Source of the DNA: Pseudanabaena galeata CCNP1313
Lineage (GTDB): Bacteria; Cyanobacteriota; Cyanobacteriia; Pseudanabaenales; Pseudanabaenaceae
DNA: 64,000 bases
Assembly: GCF_029910235.1 (NCBI RefSeq)
Contig: NZ_CP112874.1
Location: forward strand, 434,001 to 498,000
Direction: 5' to 3'
The notes under the pieces were generated by a model, which had not been told where the DNA came from, made no database searches, and saw nothing but the letters and a program-made list of their open reading frames with translations. The translations under genes and the position numbers were made by a program. Positions 2,042-15,388 of the stretch are shown here, piece by piece. Every line of letters starts with the position of its first letter. Positions within the stretch are counted from its first letter, which is position 1.

Positions 2042-3646
2042 ATGCAAACATTGAGTCCCACCATCTCTCCAACGATTTCTAAAACAAGCAACCAAAGAGT
2101 CACTAATTCAGAGACTGATCTTTTGCCTGCGATCGCTCAGTCTTCAGGCTTGCAAACAGCGTTGGCTGGTTTGGATGCGAGCCTCAATGATGAGCTAGAT
2201 CGTTATCGCCATTGGCAAGCCAATGGTCAGACTATTTCCTACCTCAATCCCTTTAGACCCCGTGCTGTCTCGACTCAATCGATTTGGACTTCACCAAGTT
2301 TATCCGATGCACTCTCCCCGATCGCTCCAATTGTTGATCCAACGACTAATGGCGATCGACGGACGATCCAAATGCCTGTAATGCCACCTATAGGCTCAGG
2401 AGCATCTACAAATTCATCAATCAATATATCTACTGCTGAGTTACATAACTTCCAAGGGCTAGAAGCTCTCCAGAGTCTTGAGAATTTGTATGATGCTGGT
2501 GTAGAGCCAGATTTACCCTATGCTCAAGACATGAATGGCTATGGTGAAGCCACGAGCGGTAGTCTGAATTCGCCGACAATGGCAAAAATACCTACCCCTG
2601 ACGATGATGACATTCTCCAAAGTTTTGCCAATGATTATGCAGATCACTATCAGGAATCCGTTGATCAAGAGTCTGCTTATCCGATTCCTAATGCACCACC
2701 TGAAAAGAGTGCCTTACGCAGTTTAATGAATCCCGTGGGGATTATTTCACTGTTGTTATTGCTCTGCTCTAGTGCCGCGATCGGCTATCTGATGGTTGAC
2801 CCATCGGGTGTAATGAAGATTTTTAAACCTGAAACAAAACCAAAAGCAGCTCAAACCGATGGCAAAAATGCAGATTTAGGCAGCGATATTAACTTGCAAA
2901 ATCAGCAGAAAGCCAATGATACAGGCATATCTTTTGTCCCTTTTGCTGGCGATAAGCCTGAATTAGCTAGCAAAGCCCCAGCCAATCCTGCGATCGCTCC
3001 CAAAAATCCCTTAGCTAACCCATCAACGAAGCCATCAAGTTTGTTCGCTCCAAATAGTGCCTTTGTGCCAACTACACCCTTGCGAACCGTGCCGTCAACT
3101 TCGTTACCGCCCATTTCCGTTGCGCCACTACCACCCGCATTAGCTCCAGCACCCGTAGAACGTAGCTATACTCCACCTGTAAGTAGAAGGAATTACGAAT
3201 CGGCTCCTGCTCCTGCAAGATCCTCTAGAGCGCCTGCTCCACGACCTGCGACTAGTAGGGCTACTCCTGCTCCTGCTCCTGCTCCTAGTACAGCTAGAGC
3301 AACTTCTCCAACATCTGCCACAGCACCTACCCCAACATCCGTAAGTCGTGCTAACACAAATTCTGTCGCGCCCACGACTGTGTATGTTACCCCACGCCCA
3401 AATACTGCGGTCAAGTATGCTGCTCCCATATCATCGGCTCCAGCCCCCGCAGTTTCCGCACCAGTTAGTAGCTATCGTGTAGTTGTGGAAAATAGCTATG
3501 CAGCTAGCGCTCAGCAAATTGAACGGGATGCTTATGTGCGCCCTAGTGACGGACGAGTGCAGATTGGCTCTTATCGAGATCCTAATGCGGCTCAGCAACG
3601 GATTGAGCAGTTGCGTCGTCAAGGTATTCCAGCCAGAATTGAATAA
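2042..3646 (+). CDS. Single-pass membrane protein with C-terminal SPOR domain
   Basis: 534 residues with a cytoplasmic N-terminal region of about 230 residues (acidic, low complexity), one membrane helix at about 233-253 (GIISLLLLLCSSAAIGYLMV), a long Pro/Ala/Ser/Thr-rich periplasmic stretch (about 300-480) with APAPAPAP-type runs, and a C-terminal SPOR segment ending GRVQIGSYRDPNAAQQRIEQ and so on. SPOR domains bind denuded glycan strands, often at division sites, so a cell-wall or septum role is likely. It follows the sigma-like gene by 13 nt. The membrane topology resembles an anti-sigma or regulator protein, but no anti-sigma motif is recognisable. Confidence 0.75.
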   Translation: MQTLSPTISPTISKTSNQRVTNSETDLLPAIAQSSGLQTALAGLDASLNDELDRYRHWQANGQTISYLNPFRPRAVSTQSIWTSPSLSDALSPIAPIVDPTTNGDRRTIQMPVMPPIGSGASTNSSINISTAELHNFQGLEALQSLENLYDAGVEPDLPYAQDMNGYGEATSGSLNSPTMAKIPTPDDDDILQSFANDYADHYQESVDQESAYPIPNAPPEKSALRSLMNPVGIISLLLLLCSSAAIGYLMVDPSGVMKIFKPETKPKAAQTDGKNADLGSDINLQNQQKANDTGISFVPFAGDKPELASKAPANPAIAPKNPLANPSTKPSSLFAPNSAFVPTTPLRTVPSTSLPPISVAPLPPALAPAPVERSYTPPVSRRNYESAPAPARSSRAPAPRPATSRATPAPAPAPSTARATSPTSATAPTPTSVSRANTNSVAPTTVYVTPRPNTAVKYAAPISSAPAPAVSAPVSSYRVVVENSYAASAQQIERDAYVRPSDGRVQIGSYRDPNAAQQRIEQLRRQGIPARIE

Positions 3647-11990: not shown

Positions 11991-14630
11991 ATGAAGCGAT
12001 TATTACCAAGTTTTGCGAAATCCCGAATCACTAAATTTTTGATAAAAGCAGCGCGAAGCGCTGCTTTTATCAAAAATTTGGGTTTGGGTTTTCTGTTATT
12101 TTTTCTGACTGTATTTATTCAACCCCTGTTGGCAGTTGCCATTACTTCGCCGCAGAGTTCTCAAATAGTTCAATCAAATTTAGAACAACCAAACACTTTA
12201 TTTAATCGTGGTAAATCATTTTATCAATTAGGACAATGGCAAGAAGCAATTCAAGTTTGGGAACAAGCCGCAAAGTTCTATCAACAGCAAAATAATTCCT
12301 TGGATTTAGCGATCACTTTCAGTAATCTCTCCTTAGCTCATCAAAAATTAGGACAATGGCAACAAGCAGAACGCACGATCGCCCAAAGTTTACAAATAGC
12401 CCGATCGCTTGAAGTCAATCCCGCAAGTCAAAGAGCGATCGCTCAGGCTCTAGATACTCAGGGGAATCTATATTTAAACCTAGGCAAAGATGAAGAGGCG
12501 ATCGCGGCTTGGCAAGAAGCCGCGATTTTGCATTCTCGACTTGGCGATCTGGATCATCAGATTCGTAATGTGCTTAATCAAGCCCAATCTCTCAAAGCTC
12601 AAGGCTTTTTTCGGCGATCGCTGCAAACTTTAGAATCAATTCAAGCATTATTGCCAAAAATTTCTGATGATCTGCTGACGGCGATCGCACTTCATAACTA
12701 CGGTGATATGTTGACCACAGTTGGCGATCTCAAACTGGCGCATCAGCCTTTAGACAAGAGTTGGAAAATTCTTGAACGCATTAATAACAAAGAACAAAAG
12801 AGTATTGTGCTGCTAAGACAGGGAAACCTCGCCCGACTGGAAGGTGAATCTGAAAAAGCCGCAGAATTTTATAAAAAGTCTGCTCAAACAGATGGGCGAT
12901 CGCTTACCAGTTTACAAGCCCAATTGAATCTATTTAGTTTACTAATTGATTCTAATGATGGGCAAGAAGCGGTAGAGATGCGATCGCAAATTGCGCCTCT
13001 ATTATTAAATCTAGAAACAAGTCGCGAGGCAATCTTTGTAAGAATCAACTATGGTGAGAGCTTACTGAGACTCACGAAGTTAGTCCCTCAATCAGTAGCC
13101 GATTCTCTATTAGCCGAAGCCGCCCAAACATTAGCAGTTTCAGTCCAGCAGGCTCAATCCATCAACGATAGCCGCACTATTGCCTATGCGATCGGCAGTC
13201 TTGGCAATGCTTACGAACAAAGTAAACAAATCGAAGAATCTCAAAAACTCACTCAACAAGCTTTAGCGATCGCCCAAAGTATCAATGCAACCGACATTGG
13301 CTATCGTTGGCAGTGGCAATTAGGAAGACTGCTCAAAGCTAAAGGTGATATCAAGGGCGCGATCCTTGCCTATACCGAAGCCGTCAATGGGTTACGCCAA
13401 TTACGCAGTGATCTCGTCTTTGTGAATCCCAATGTGCAATTCTCATTTCGGGAAACTGTCGAGCCTGTCTATCGTCAACTCGTGAGTTTATTGCTGCAAG
13501 ACGATACGGGTGATAAACAGAAGAACCTAATCACAGCGCAAGCAGCGATCGAATCATTGCAAATTGCCGAATTAGTCAATTTTTTTCGTTCTGACTGTCT
13601 TAATGCTGCCCAAGTTGACATTAATCAAATTGATAGAACTGCGGCGGTCGTTTATCCAATCATTCTTGAAGATCGCTTAGAAGTTATTCTAAGTCTGCCT
13701 AATCAACCGCTCCGTCATTATGCTAGTAAAGTTACAGCAGCAGAAATCGACGATATGGTCATCGATTTACGCCTAAATCTGCGCGATCCCTCCTCGGATG
13801 ATTATCTTTCGAGCGCTCAAAGTATCTATGATTGGTTGATTCGTCCTGCTATTAGTGCGATCGCCCAAAGTAATGTCAAAACCATTGTTTTTGTTTTAGA
13901 CGGTTCTTTAAGAAATATTCCCATGTCCGTTTTGCATGATGGCAAGCAGTTCTTAATTGAGAATTACAGCATTGCCCTTACGCCGAGCTTGCAACTCCTA
14001 GACCCAAAACCGATCGCTAAGCAAAAAGTTACCGCCCTAATTGGTGGATTGAGTGAGGCAAGACAAGGATATTCAGCATTGCCAAATGTTAAAAGTGAGC
14101 TACAGGAAATTAACAAACAAGTTTCTTCGAGTTCGATCTTTCTTAACTCTAGTTTTACGAAGCAAAATCTTGCCCAAACACTGACCTCCCTGACTTTCCC
14201 GATTATTCATCTTGCTACTCACGGCAACTTTAGCTCTGAAGCTGAAAACACTTATTTGCTTACTTACGATGGAAAGTTAACCATTGAAAATCTTTATCAG
14301 TTGTTACGTTCTAATAACCGCAGTGATTTAGAACCAATTGAGTTATTGATTTTGAGTGCCTGTCAAACGGCGGTGGGAGATAAGCGTGCGGCTCTGGGCT
14401 TAGCAGGAATGGCGGTGCGGGCAGGAGCGAGAAGTACGATCGCCTCGCTTTGGTCGGTTGATGATGAGGCAACTTCTAAGTTTATGATTGCTCTCTATCA
14501 AAGTTTATCCTCAGCCAACGTCACCAGAGCCGAATCTTTGAGATTTGCCCAACAGTCTCTGCTCAAAAACGCAAAATACGATCATCCCTACTATTGGTCA
14601 GCCTTTGTATTGCTCGGAAACTGGCTATAG
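11991..14630 (+). CDS. TPR-repeat CHAT-domain protease-like protein
   Basis: 879 residues from ATG 11991 (an upstream in-frame ATG at 11943 overlaps the adhesin and is less likely). The hydrophobic segment LGFLLFFLTVFIQPLLAV (about 34-51) is a signal peptide or anchor. Residues about 60-470 are TPR units (for example LFNRGKSFYQLGQWQEAIQV). A CHAT domain follows (about 590-879) with the caspase-type dyad His744 in LATHGN and Cys791 in LSACQTAVGD. It starts 20 nt after the adhesin stop, so the two are probably one operon. CHAT proteins are caspase-related; known members cleave specific partners. The substrate is unknown here. A 47-bp palindrome lies in the signal-peptide coding region. Confidence 0.85.
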   Translation: MKRLLPSFAKSRITKFLIKAARSAAFIKNLGLGFLLFFLTVFIQPLLAVAITSPQSSQIVQSNLEQPNTLFNRGKSFYQLGQWQEAIQVWEQAAKFYQQQNNSLDLAITFSNLSLAHQKLGQWQQAERTIAQSLQIARSLEVNPASQRAIAQALDTQGNLYLNLGKDEEAIAAWQEAAILHSRLGDLDHQIRNVLNQAQSLKAQGFFRRSLQTLESIQALLPKISDDLLTAIALHNYGDMLTTVGDLKLAHQPLDKSWKILERINNKEQKSIVLLRQGNLARLEGESEKAAEFYKKSAQTDGRSLTSLQAQLNLFSLLIDSNDGQEAVEMRSQIAPLLLNLETSREAIFVRINYGESLLRLTKLVPQSVADSLLAEAAQTLAVSVQQAQSINDSRTIAYAIGSLGNAYEQSKQIEESQKLTQQALAIAQSINATDIGYRWQWQLGRLLKAKGDIKGAILAYTEAVNGLRQLRSDLVFVNPNVQFSFRETVEPVYRQLVSLLLQDDTGDKQKNLITAQAAIESLQIAELVNFFRSDCLNAAQVDINQIDRTAAVVYPIILEDRLEVILSLPNQPLRHYASKVTAAEIDDMVIDLRLNLRDPSSDDYLSSAQSIYDWLIRPAISAIAQSNVKTIVFVLDGSLRNIPMSVLHDGKQFLIENYSIALTPSLQLLDPKPIAKQKVTALIGGLSEARQGYSALPNVKSELQEINKQVSSSSIFLNSSFTKQNLAQTLTSLTFPIIHLATHGNFSSEAENTYLLTYDGKLTIENLYQLLRSNNRSDLEPIELLILSACQTAVGDKRAALGLAGMAVRAGARSTIASLWSVDDEATSKFMIALYQSLSSANVTRAESLRFAQQSLLKNAKYDHPYYWSAFVLLGNWL
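12033..12079. repeat. Palindrome inside the CHAT coding sequence
   Basis: 22-nt perfect arms (AAATTTTTGATAAAAGCAGC...) around a GAA loop, in the family of GCGCGAAGCGC hairpins. It is read in frame as KFLIKAARSAAFIKN just before the hydrophobic core of the signal segment. Confidence 0.85.
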
Positions 14631-14649
14631 CAATTGTCCAAACCCAAAT

Positions 14650-14682
14650 AAATGAAGGCGGCGCGAAGCGCCGCCTTCATTT
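14650..14682. repeat. Hairpin at 3' end of the CHAT gene, half of a family-A element
   Basis: Arms AAATGAAGGCGGCGC and GCGCCGCCTTCATTT around GAA. The left TATAGCAATTGTCC end (14626-14639) overlaps the CHAT stop codon. The right end has been replaced by a family-C terminus, AACGTCAGTTCGA (14683-14695). Confidence 0.75.
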
Positions 14683-14918
14683 AACGTCAGTTCGACGGAG
14701 TAGACTTTACACTTCTCCAAGATCACCAGATTATGAGTCCAGCCAATTTCTGCCACCAATGGTGTCAGTTTTTCATTGCCGTGGCAAGCAAGGTAAAAAT
14801 CCCGCATTCTCCAAATATTTCGCGCCGAAACCCAGCCATCCCATGAAACTCAACCTGCAAATCCTGAGCCAATTGTTCCACTACTGACTTACCCCAACCA
14901 GCAACAAGTAACGATTAA

Positions 14919-15234
14919 GAGCGTGTTTGAGAAGTCTCTTATTTAGCGTAAATTCCTGCTTTTACCCCCCTTAATCCCCCCTTGCAAAGGCTACCGTGTA
15001 CATACAAGTCTCCCCCTGTCTACGTTTGAGGGTTTAGATCCCCCTCAATCCCCCTTTTTAAGGGGGGAGAATTTTCTTCTTCCCCCTTAAAAAGGGGGAT
15101 TGAGGGGGATCATTAGTAACTCACGCTATAACTGATGACTTGTGTGTACACGGTAGCTTGCAAAGGAGGGAAACTCAGATTCTCCCTCTTTACAAGGGGG
15201 AGTTAGAGGGGGTAAAAACTTCTCAAACACGCTC
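14919..15234. mobile_element. Outer miniature element with 17-bp TIRs and TAA duplication
   Basis: The ends are GAGCGTGTTTGAGAAGT and its exact complement. A TAA flanks both sides (14916-14918, 15235-15237), consistent with a 3-bp target duplication. There is no coding capacity. Subtracting the nested element and its duplicated 8 bp leaves about 140 bp. It is inserted in the DUF1016 gene. Confidence 0.85.
14990..15157. mobile_element. Nested 168-bp miniature element
   Basis: The ends are GCTACCGTGTACATACAAGT and the complement of GCTACCGTGTACACACAAGT (one mismatch). It is flanked by an 8-bp direct repeat TTGCAAAG (14982-14989, 15158-15165). Inside is a long palindrome built from GGGGGATTGAGGGGGAT and its complement (about 15040-15111). 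It therefore landed inside the outer element after that had inserted in the DUF1016 gene. Confidence 0.85.
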
Positions 15235-15388
15235 TAACTCACCAATATCCCAATAAAGCGCCATTAACTCTCGATTAACCGACTTTAAAGCCTCATACTG
15301 AATCGCACCTGTAACTTCCACCGCTCTCTCATAGATGATCTCGCTGTAATGAGAAATAGAAGCACACTATAGCCCAATCATCTATGCA

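Follow-up and report, generated by a model that had tools for sequence, protein, structure and literature searches.

In the window, that is the 64,000-nucleotide stretch of DNA analysed here (C1:434001-498000 of the 5.84-Mb Pseudanabaena genome; element coordinates are window positions), one miniature element (MITE) lies within another. Their nesting is not fortuitous, as palindromes are what the inner family aims at and one is present in the outer MITE. According to our overall reading, to which we assign a probability of roughly 85%, both are non-autonomous MITEs served in trans by unrelated transposases, the inner one being aimed at the palindrome of the outer. An IS5-family transposase, which duplicates TNA, would have put a 140-bp MITE into a DUF1016 gene or its remnant, and a Tn5-like IS4-family transposase, generating a 10-11-bp duplication, would have put a 166-bp MITE at the axis of the palindrome CCCCCCTTGCAAAGGGGGG in this outer MITE. 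Because the inner family appears to insert preferentially at the axis of palindromes made of G/C runs, among them the cores of other MITEs as well as its own, nesting would arise again and again. The features of the locus are as follows:

14706..14918, minus strand: left part of the DUF1016/YhcG remnant, in more than one frame, aligned to roughly codons 53-118 of the 343-aa orthologue
14916..14918, no strand: TAA target duplication, left copy, a single TAA in four empty sites
14919..15234, no strand: outer MITE, IS5-type, 316 bp with the insert and 140 bp without the insert and one duplication copy
14919..14935, plus strand: left terminal inverted repeat of the outer element; ends GAGCGTGTTTGAGAAGT with an exact match across 17 bp
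14981..14990, no strand: left copy of the 10-bp duplication CTTGCAAAGG, lying on the axis of the first palindrome in the outer MITE
14991..15156, no strand: inner MITE with Tn5-like/IS4-type ends, 166 bp
14991..15009, plus strand: inner terminal inverted repeat, left, CTACCGTGTACATACAAGT
15037..15111, no strand: double-palindrome core of the inner MITE, 35-nt arms, 97%, used as an insertion target in other family members
15138..15156, minus strand: inner terminal inverted repeat, right, pairing with the left inverted repeat
15157..15166, no strand: 10-bp duplication CTTGCAAAGG, right copy, direct repeat of 14981-14990
15218..15234, minus strand: outer terminal inverted repeat, right, exact 17-bp match to the left end
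15235..15237, no strand: TAA target duplication, right copy, likewise a single TAA in four empty sites
15235..15301, minus strand: right part of the DUF1016 remnant, past the outer element, roughly codons 24-45

The initial annotation, made from the sequence of the window, had described the outer element as 316 bp long with exact 17-bp inverted ends and a TAA duplication, and this description stands: the element occupies 14919-15234 and is bordered by TAA on both sides. A search for empty sites recovered four, namely L154, L155, L156 and L048, the latter being a DUF1016 paralogue within the window's own genome, and in these the flanks join at one single TAA. Searching the genome for the outer end with up to two mismatches revealed a multicopy family, with 28 + 24 = 52 matches as compared to 2 + 1 = 3 for the reversed-pattern control. 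Twenty paired copies are present, 18 of which carry no insert; the insert-free copies measure 140-141 bp in 12 cases and 103-150 bp in the remainder. TNA flanks were found at all 20 paired copies, the triplets being identical in 17 (10 TAA, 6 TTA and 1 TCA). With up to one mismatch, the outer end occurs in 25 of the 38 genomes of the family, but in just two of its eight genera, at three control matches.

For the inner element, a length of 168 bp, 20-bp ends and an 8-bp duplication had been proposed. The nested element itself was confirmed, but its borders were not, as it measures 166 bp and is flanked by the 10-bp duplication CTTGCAAAGG. When the older boundaries are applied, 19 of 20 positions pair between the two ends, located at 14990-15009 and 15138-15157, and TTGCAAAG flanks both sides; this 8-bp duplication was replaced by the 10-bp version upon a boundary-base test. 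In copies with exact repeats, an unusual boundary base equals the flank in five of six instances of a left base other than G and in one of two instances of a right base other than C. The G..C at the very tips of these ends is thus most likely part of the target DNA, which leaves 166 bp for the element. The inner end is likewise multicopy: with up to one mismatch, the genome contains 30 + 29 = 59 matches, as compared to 2 + 4 = 6 for the control. Its 19-base version was detected with up to two mismatches in 25 of the 38 genomes of the family (two control matches), and with up to one mismatch in 42 of the 386 sampled genomes of the phylum, representing 24 of 142 genera (one control match).

Altogether, 124 inner-type copies with two ends and distinct flanks were assembled, 30 of which derive from loci L001-L078 of this genome. 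The pairing rule was loose, tolerating up to five mismatches in each 20-base end, and some of the resulting pairs, e.g. those of 1.2-1.3 kb in L041 and L043, are probably false; these are repeat-less and so fall outside the target tests described below. If the ends are taken as CTACC..GGTAG, 68 of the 124 copies, comprising MITEs and IS, possess a direct repeat with at most one mismatch, which is 10 bp long in 33, 11 bp long in 27 and of other length in eight. With the older boundaries, 62 of the 124 are devoid of a clean direct repeat. At four of the 124 copies (L002; L043, position 4283; L050, position 6508; L233), the direct repeat is missing and the flanks instead form inverted arms with 10-18 exact bases, which look as if one loop were flipped. 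The inner family also nests within itself, as seen at C1:4027921-4028514 and C1:1155896-1156182. Copies of 348-349 bp had been regarded as simple self-nestings as well, which proved wrong for L047, a longer variant that has the ends alone in common.

The initial annotation also deduced from the two duplications that two different transposase families were involved, and the partner IS bear this out, as they belong to the IS5 family (outer) and the IS4 family (inner). Full IS with either type of ends, which it proposed to look for, exist in relatives (~915 bp and IS5-family for the outer ends; ~1.49 kb, Tn5-like and IS4-family for the inner ends), but searches for both in the window's own genome were negative. 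IS of 913-918 bp with outer ends were identified in four relatives (L089-L092) and contain two overlapping reading frames; L090 and L089 match NF033580 (IS5-family), with two of three fragments above the cut-off. An IS5 transposase, the TNA duplication and the common ends place the outer partner among the TNA-duplicating members of the IS5 family, which we take to be the IS1031 group. TNA duplications, an IS of ~915 bp, two overlapping frames and the NF033580 match are shared with these members, whereas the outer element itself is a MITE, whose genome contains one distant IS5 relative (34% identity, at E<=1e-10) and in which the partner was not found.

IS bounded by inner-type ends on both sides occur at eight loci and are 1486-1490 bp long in seven and 1604 bp long in one of them. 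In Pseudanabaena sp. UWO311 (L214/L273, contig NZ_SJEE01000036), a 1489-bp IS of this kind encodes an uninterrupted 443-aa transposase frame. The L214 transposase matches NF033590 with an E value of 6e-112 (374.6 bits as compared to a cut-off of 160), finds its best PDB match in Tn5 transposase (E 5e-28, residues 15-406 of the query aligned) and contains the YREK motif (Y(2)R(3)E(6)K) in the form of YCWRWRIEQLFATLK at residue 297. The DDE transposase, the motif and the single frame agree with membership of the IS4 family, as does the length of the target duplication, which amounts to about one helix turn (mostly 10-11 bp). Subgroups of this family and the IS50 end consensus are given in Table 1 of De Palmenaer et al. 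(PMC2266710). Compared with the entries of that table, the IS resembles the IS50 subgroup, which includes Tn5, in length (seven of eight full copies within 1350-1550 bp), in the ends (CTACCGTGTACACACAAGTC agrees with the consensus CW------Y---CA-A--W- at 7/7 positions), in the YREK motif and in the Tn5 PDB match. It differs from IS50 in clear palindrome targeting and in the direct repeats, which are mostly of 10-11 bp instead of 8-9 bp, the older boundary yielding 8-9 bp. Since the duplication is 10-11 bp long when the outermost G..C is given to the target, we class the inner partner as a Tn5-like member of the IS4 family outside IS50. The inner element in turn qualifies as a MITE of this partner, as it has the same ends, is short, lacks a transposase and generates a duplication of the same length. 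For outer and inner MITEs alike, the sequence in common with the partner IS is confined to the terminal ~20 bp.

The IS4-type transposase was detected at E<=1e-60 in at least six of the 386 phylum genomes, the best four candidates per genome being scored. Seven of the nine corresponding loci have both inner-type ends (in one case with five mismatches in the left end) and two have one. Within the family, seven of 38 genomes match it at E<=1e-30, the same element being present in G022 (100%) and G018 (96%, 288 aa) alone; the window's genome yielded no match to this transposase at E<=1e-30. It is reasonable to assume that IS5- and IS4-type transposases moved the outer and the inner MITE in trans, respectively, and since neither partner IS was found in this genome, mobilization there would be historical. 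Further candidates for the inner partner were rejected. Six distant IS4 transposases of the genus (L275-L280; 33-34% identity) have no inner-type ends in the flanking DNA examined, and L213, which is 1336 bp long and has inner-type ends, is actually an inner-type MITE with an ISAs1-family IS in its own hairpin (L213:533-1868, Cyanobacteria bacterium RU_5_0). Given the position of the latter IS, a further IS family may use such palindromes.

To judge from the reconstructed sites, insertions of the inner MITE and of its IS in cyanobacteria fall on the axis of palindromes composed of a C run and a G run. Targets were derived from those 62 of the 124 copies for which the older boundaries give a repeat of 7-10 bp, one mismatch being tolerated, and 56 of them remained after removal of near-duplicates; the other 62 copies lie outside the tests, and the reconstructed site is identical under either boundary. 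The sites of outer MITEs served as control for the bias that mobile elements persist chiefly between genes. The left arms of the inner targets are mainly C/T runs and the right arms A/G runs. A contiguous stem of at least 5 bp surrounds the axis at 44 of the 56 inner targets, as compared to two of 20 targets of the outer MITE and 125 of 2000 sites chosen at random, which places axis insertion above chance, as expected for a palindrome-targeting IS of the ISRm22 kind. The inner targets also fold more stably, with a mean of -7.68 kcal/mol (n=56) as compared to -1.11 for outer targets (n=20) and -2.28 for random window sites (n=200). Relative to dinucleotide shuffles of their own letters, their stability is moderate (median z -1.73), z values below -2 being reached by 25 of 56 inner targets, none of 20 outer targets and 22 of 200 random sites. 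Ten of the 56 sites are located in the window's genome, seven of them with a stem of at least 5 bp, and all five full-length IS copies in the tested set have targets with such a stem.

An alternative, whose chances we rate somewhat below even, is that the palindromes are incidental, i.e. that the transposase reads a short symmetric sequence consisting of a pyrimidine run, ~10 bp and a purine run, which is common in hairpin repeats. The strong C columns on the left and G columns on the right of the inner targets would fit this idea, and so would the description in PMC1525189, in the part concerned with Tn5, of Tn5 sites as palindromic with G/C pairs at the duplication ends. Moreover, this genome has 298 CCCCTT(N2-5)AAGGGG palindromes on offer (reversed pattern: 1), and just 25 of 56 targets fold more than two standard deviations better than shuffles of their own letters. 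What speaks against incidental palindromes is the outcome of half-site shuffling. When right arms were exchanged between sites, complementary flank pairs dropped from 269 to 238.6 +/- 8.7, none of 5000 shuffles reaching the observed value. Likewise, exchanging the halves of 9-bp repeats lowered internal pairing from the observed 59 of 78 to an expected 44.4, again with 0/5000 reaching the observed count. The 8-bp repeats (older boundaries) displayed no excess of internal pairing (26 of 66 as compared to 26.3 expected). As pairing both outside the repeat and in 9-bp repeats falls upon shuffling of half-sites, whole palindromes rather than a mean consensus would be used as targets. In addition, some stems are made of quite other letters, e.g. 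at the targets GGCTGAAGCC (L282) and CCCCGTTTACGGGG (L231).

This preference is accompanied by recurrent nesting. Six complete composites of an inner in an outer element were identified, namely the one in the window, C1:3306529-3306828, L087 (Pseudanabaena sp. SR411), L182 (Nostoc sp. JL33), L264 (Mojavia pulchra) and L265 (Fischerella sp. PCC 9431). The outer ends of the last three differ from the Pseudanabaena end at no more than four of 17 positions and TNA flanks are present. Another six composites are partial (L031, L082, L176, L214, L267 and L269). In L214 (G022), the right end of the IS adjoins the right half of an outer-type MITE, and the contig stops 29 bases to the left. L169, which had been flagged by a 4-mismatch end lying within a core, was left out of the count.

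The initial annotation considered the order of events at the locus, i.e. gene, outer element, inner element, to be readable. That the inner insertion followed the outer one in the building of the composite is certain; the complete order for the locus is merely the likelier one, because a finished composite could have moved as a unit. That is, the composite may have been built elsewhere and then brought to the DUF1016 remnant, complete at 316 bp, by an IS5-type transposase, in which case the inner insertion would predate the outer one at this locus, a scenario that we regard as unlikely. It would agree with the perfect outer ends of the window copy, as in a recent move, and with the second complete composite of this genome (C1:3306529-3306828), in which the insertion point and the palindrome are the same as in the window. 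Against transfer as a unit, both layers of the window copy are closest to free-standing elements: the inner element is 92.9% identical to a free-standing copy, the inner element of the second composite ranking third with 88.9%, and the outer element is 95.7% identical to a free-standing outer MITE as compared to 80.1% for the outer element of the second composite. The inner element of the second composite is also closest to a free-standing copy, and its outer element is about equally far from several outer MITEs (80.1% to that of the window, 80.3% at best). Furthermore, the arms around the insert in the second composite are inverted rather than direct, and no second copy with the junctions of the window was found among 115 matches of the window stretch in this genome (best 40 of 166 candidates scored). 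As each layer of the window copy is closest to free-standing copies, separate insertions are favoured, albeit unproven. Growth of the structure through recombination or slippage between related palindromic cores, with no transposition, is highly improbable: the cores of the inner, outer and a third MITE family are similar, and the composites in L082, L267 and L269 miss one inner end, as if recombined, but the window copy contradicts this scenario by exact target duplications, complete ends and empty sites for both layers.

The core similarity just mentioned extends over the double palindromes of the outer and inner MITEs, which align at 54 of 72 positions. The third MITE family in this genome has ends like AGAAACCATTTAAGAATT, which are paired at seven of 20 core loci (L293, L294, L297, L298, L299, L301 and L304), mostly 110-143 bp in length; L297 contains two copies side by side. 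At eight core loci, some of which belong to the third family, the core is 76-86% identical to that of the inner MITE, with 83-86% for L294, L297, L298 and L304. To judge from this similarity, unrelated MITE families may have in common a hairpin that also acts as a hot spot for insertions, and this could contribute to an explanation of the dense palindromic repeats in cyanobacterial genomes. A more far-reaching idea, which we hold to be rather doubtful, is that the Tn5-like transposase recognizes extruded hairpin or cruciform DNA and not sequence, so that the core found in three families would be a self-spreading landing pad, further insertions being drawn to every element that has gained it, with runaway nesting as the result. 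Insertion into a folded target would, in this view, have yielded the copies with inverted arms as a by-product.

Few DDE transposases have been studied as thoroughly as that of Tn5, which is also widely used as a laboratory tool. From a natural Tn5 relative with strong preference for palindromes, one could learn how enzymes of this family come to choose their targets. In this way, two nested miniature elements become a testable rule, namely that a Tn5-like element uses palindromes as targets, and tests may draw on the occurrence of the inner end in 24 of the 142 sampled genera and on the uninterrupted transposase gene of the partner IS in Pseudanabaena sp. UWO311.

Insertion of an IS4-family element at a palindrome axis has a precedent. 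ISRm22, an IS4-family element of Sinorhizobium meliloti, inserts at the palindromy axis of REP sequences and produces 6-bp repeats (Tobes and Pareja, PMC1525189). It resembles the inner family in its IS4-family transposase, in the use of the axis of a palindromic repeat and in imperfect repeats in some copies, which were ascribed to recombination. By contrast, the inner family generates duplications of 10-11 bp instead of 6-bp repeats and uses many different palindromes instead of a single REP family; it also comprises MITEs, shows nesting and brings along its own landing site. In Anabaena variabilis, GTAG-15 REP dimers are inserted in long palindromes (PMC3733652). Going by that description, they are similar to the inner element as small repeats within cyanobacterial palindromes, and the inner element also ends in GTAG, whereas their palindromes have the letters TATAGGA..TCCTATA and they are REP units, as opposed to other letters and an IS4-type MITE here. 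IS1111 in QMITE2 of Coxiella provides a case of an IS recognizing a palindrome borne by a MITE (PMC10969869); it involves a different transposase family, whereas here a MITE enters a MITE, and does so in several genera. Finally, the MITEs of Anabaena sp. 90 were classed as type II, as that genome holds no IS with their ends (PMC3542288). As described, they share with the present MITEs the abundance in a cyanobacterium, the lack of a partner IS in the genome and the location of some copies within genes; the partner IS of the present MITEs, in contrast, were found in other genomes. A literature search, covering mostly open texts and main articles, returned no description of the inner element or of a bacterial MITE nested in this manner, and a text search for pieces of the inner-end sequence returned only papers on other organisms. 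What is new here is the target choice of the inner MITE and its IS, i.e. the axis of palindromes, including those of other elements and their own.

With regard to the gene that hosts the composite, the claim that DUF1016 homology is split by the outer element and reads across it was confirmed, since both flanks align to complete DUF1016 genes of 338-343 aa in L147, L048, L154 and L155. The left part is 83-95% identical at the DNA level to element-free DUF1016 homologues in L147, L148, L153-L156 and L048, and the right part is 97-98.5% identical to homologues across 66-67 bp. The left-flank stretch scores 36.3 bits with PF17761 (Pfam cut-off 32.8). L154, L155 and L048 contain full 338-aa frames, and the L156 homologue has no frame of at least 150 aa at the site. 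An intact gene in a sister strain, for which a search had been advised, exists at the same locus beside purS in L147 (G022): it is free of the element, 343 aa long and carries PF17761 and PF06250, the Pfam domain check of complete genes covering L147 and L048. At the same purS-side locus of L148 (G020), the gene also lacks the element and its frame stops at 165 aa. Relative to the L147 orthologue, the window copy retains about codons 24-118 of 343, its 3' part is gone and the frame changes. A deletion of 658 bp just past the right remnant part removes the gene start; in L147, these 658 bp hold, besides the gene start, a small upstream frame in full and the greater part of a second one. The gene had been described as dead and as holding both elements. 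It is dead, but with its start and 3' part lost and its frame changed, it is a remnant to which the elements did not do the sole damage.

Beside the intact DUF1016 gene, L147 contains two small overlapping frames of 129 and 84 aa (L147:2341-2950), which gave us the impression of a toxin-antitoxin pair; the 658-bp deletion has removed the former wholly and the latter mostly from the window. A perfect hairpin with 16-bp arms (TAAATGAAGGCGGCGC) occupies 14649-14683, in the interval that separates the DUF1016 remnant from a gene whose end is at 14630, and the palindromic repeat around it recurs in L048 at ~3448-3503, with 98% identity on one strand and 91% on the other.
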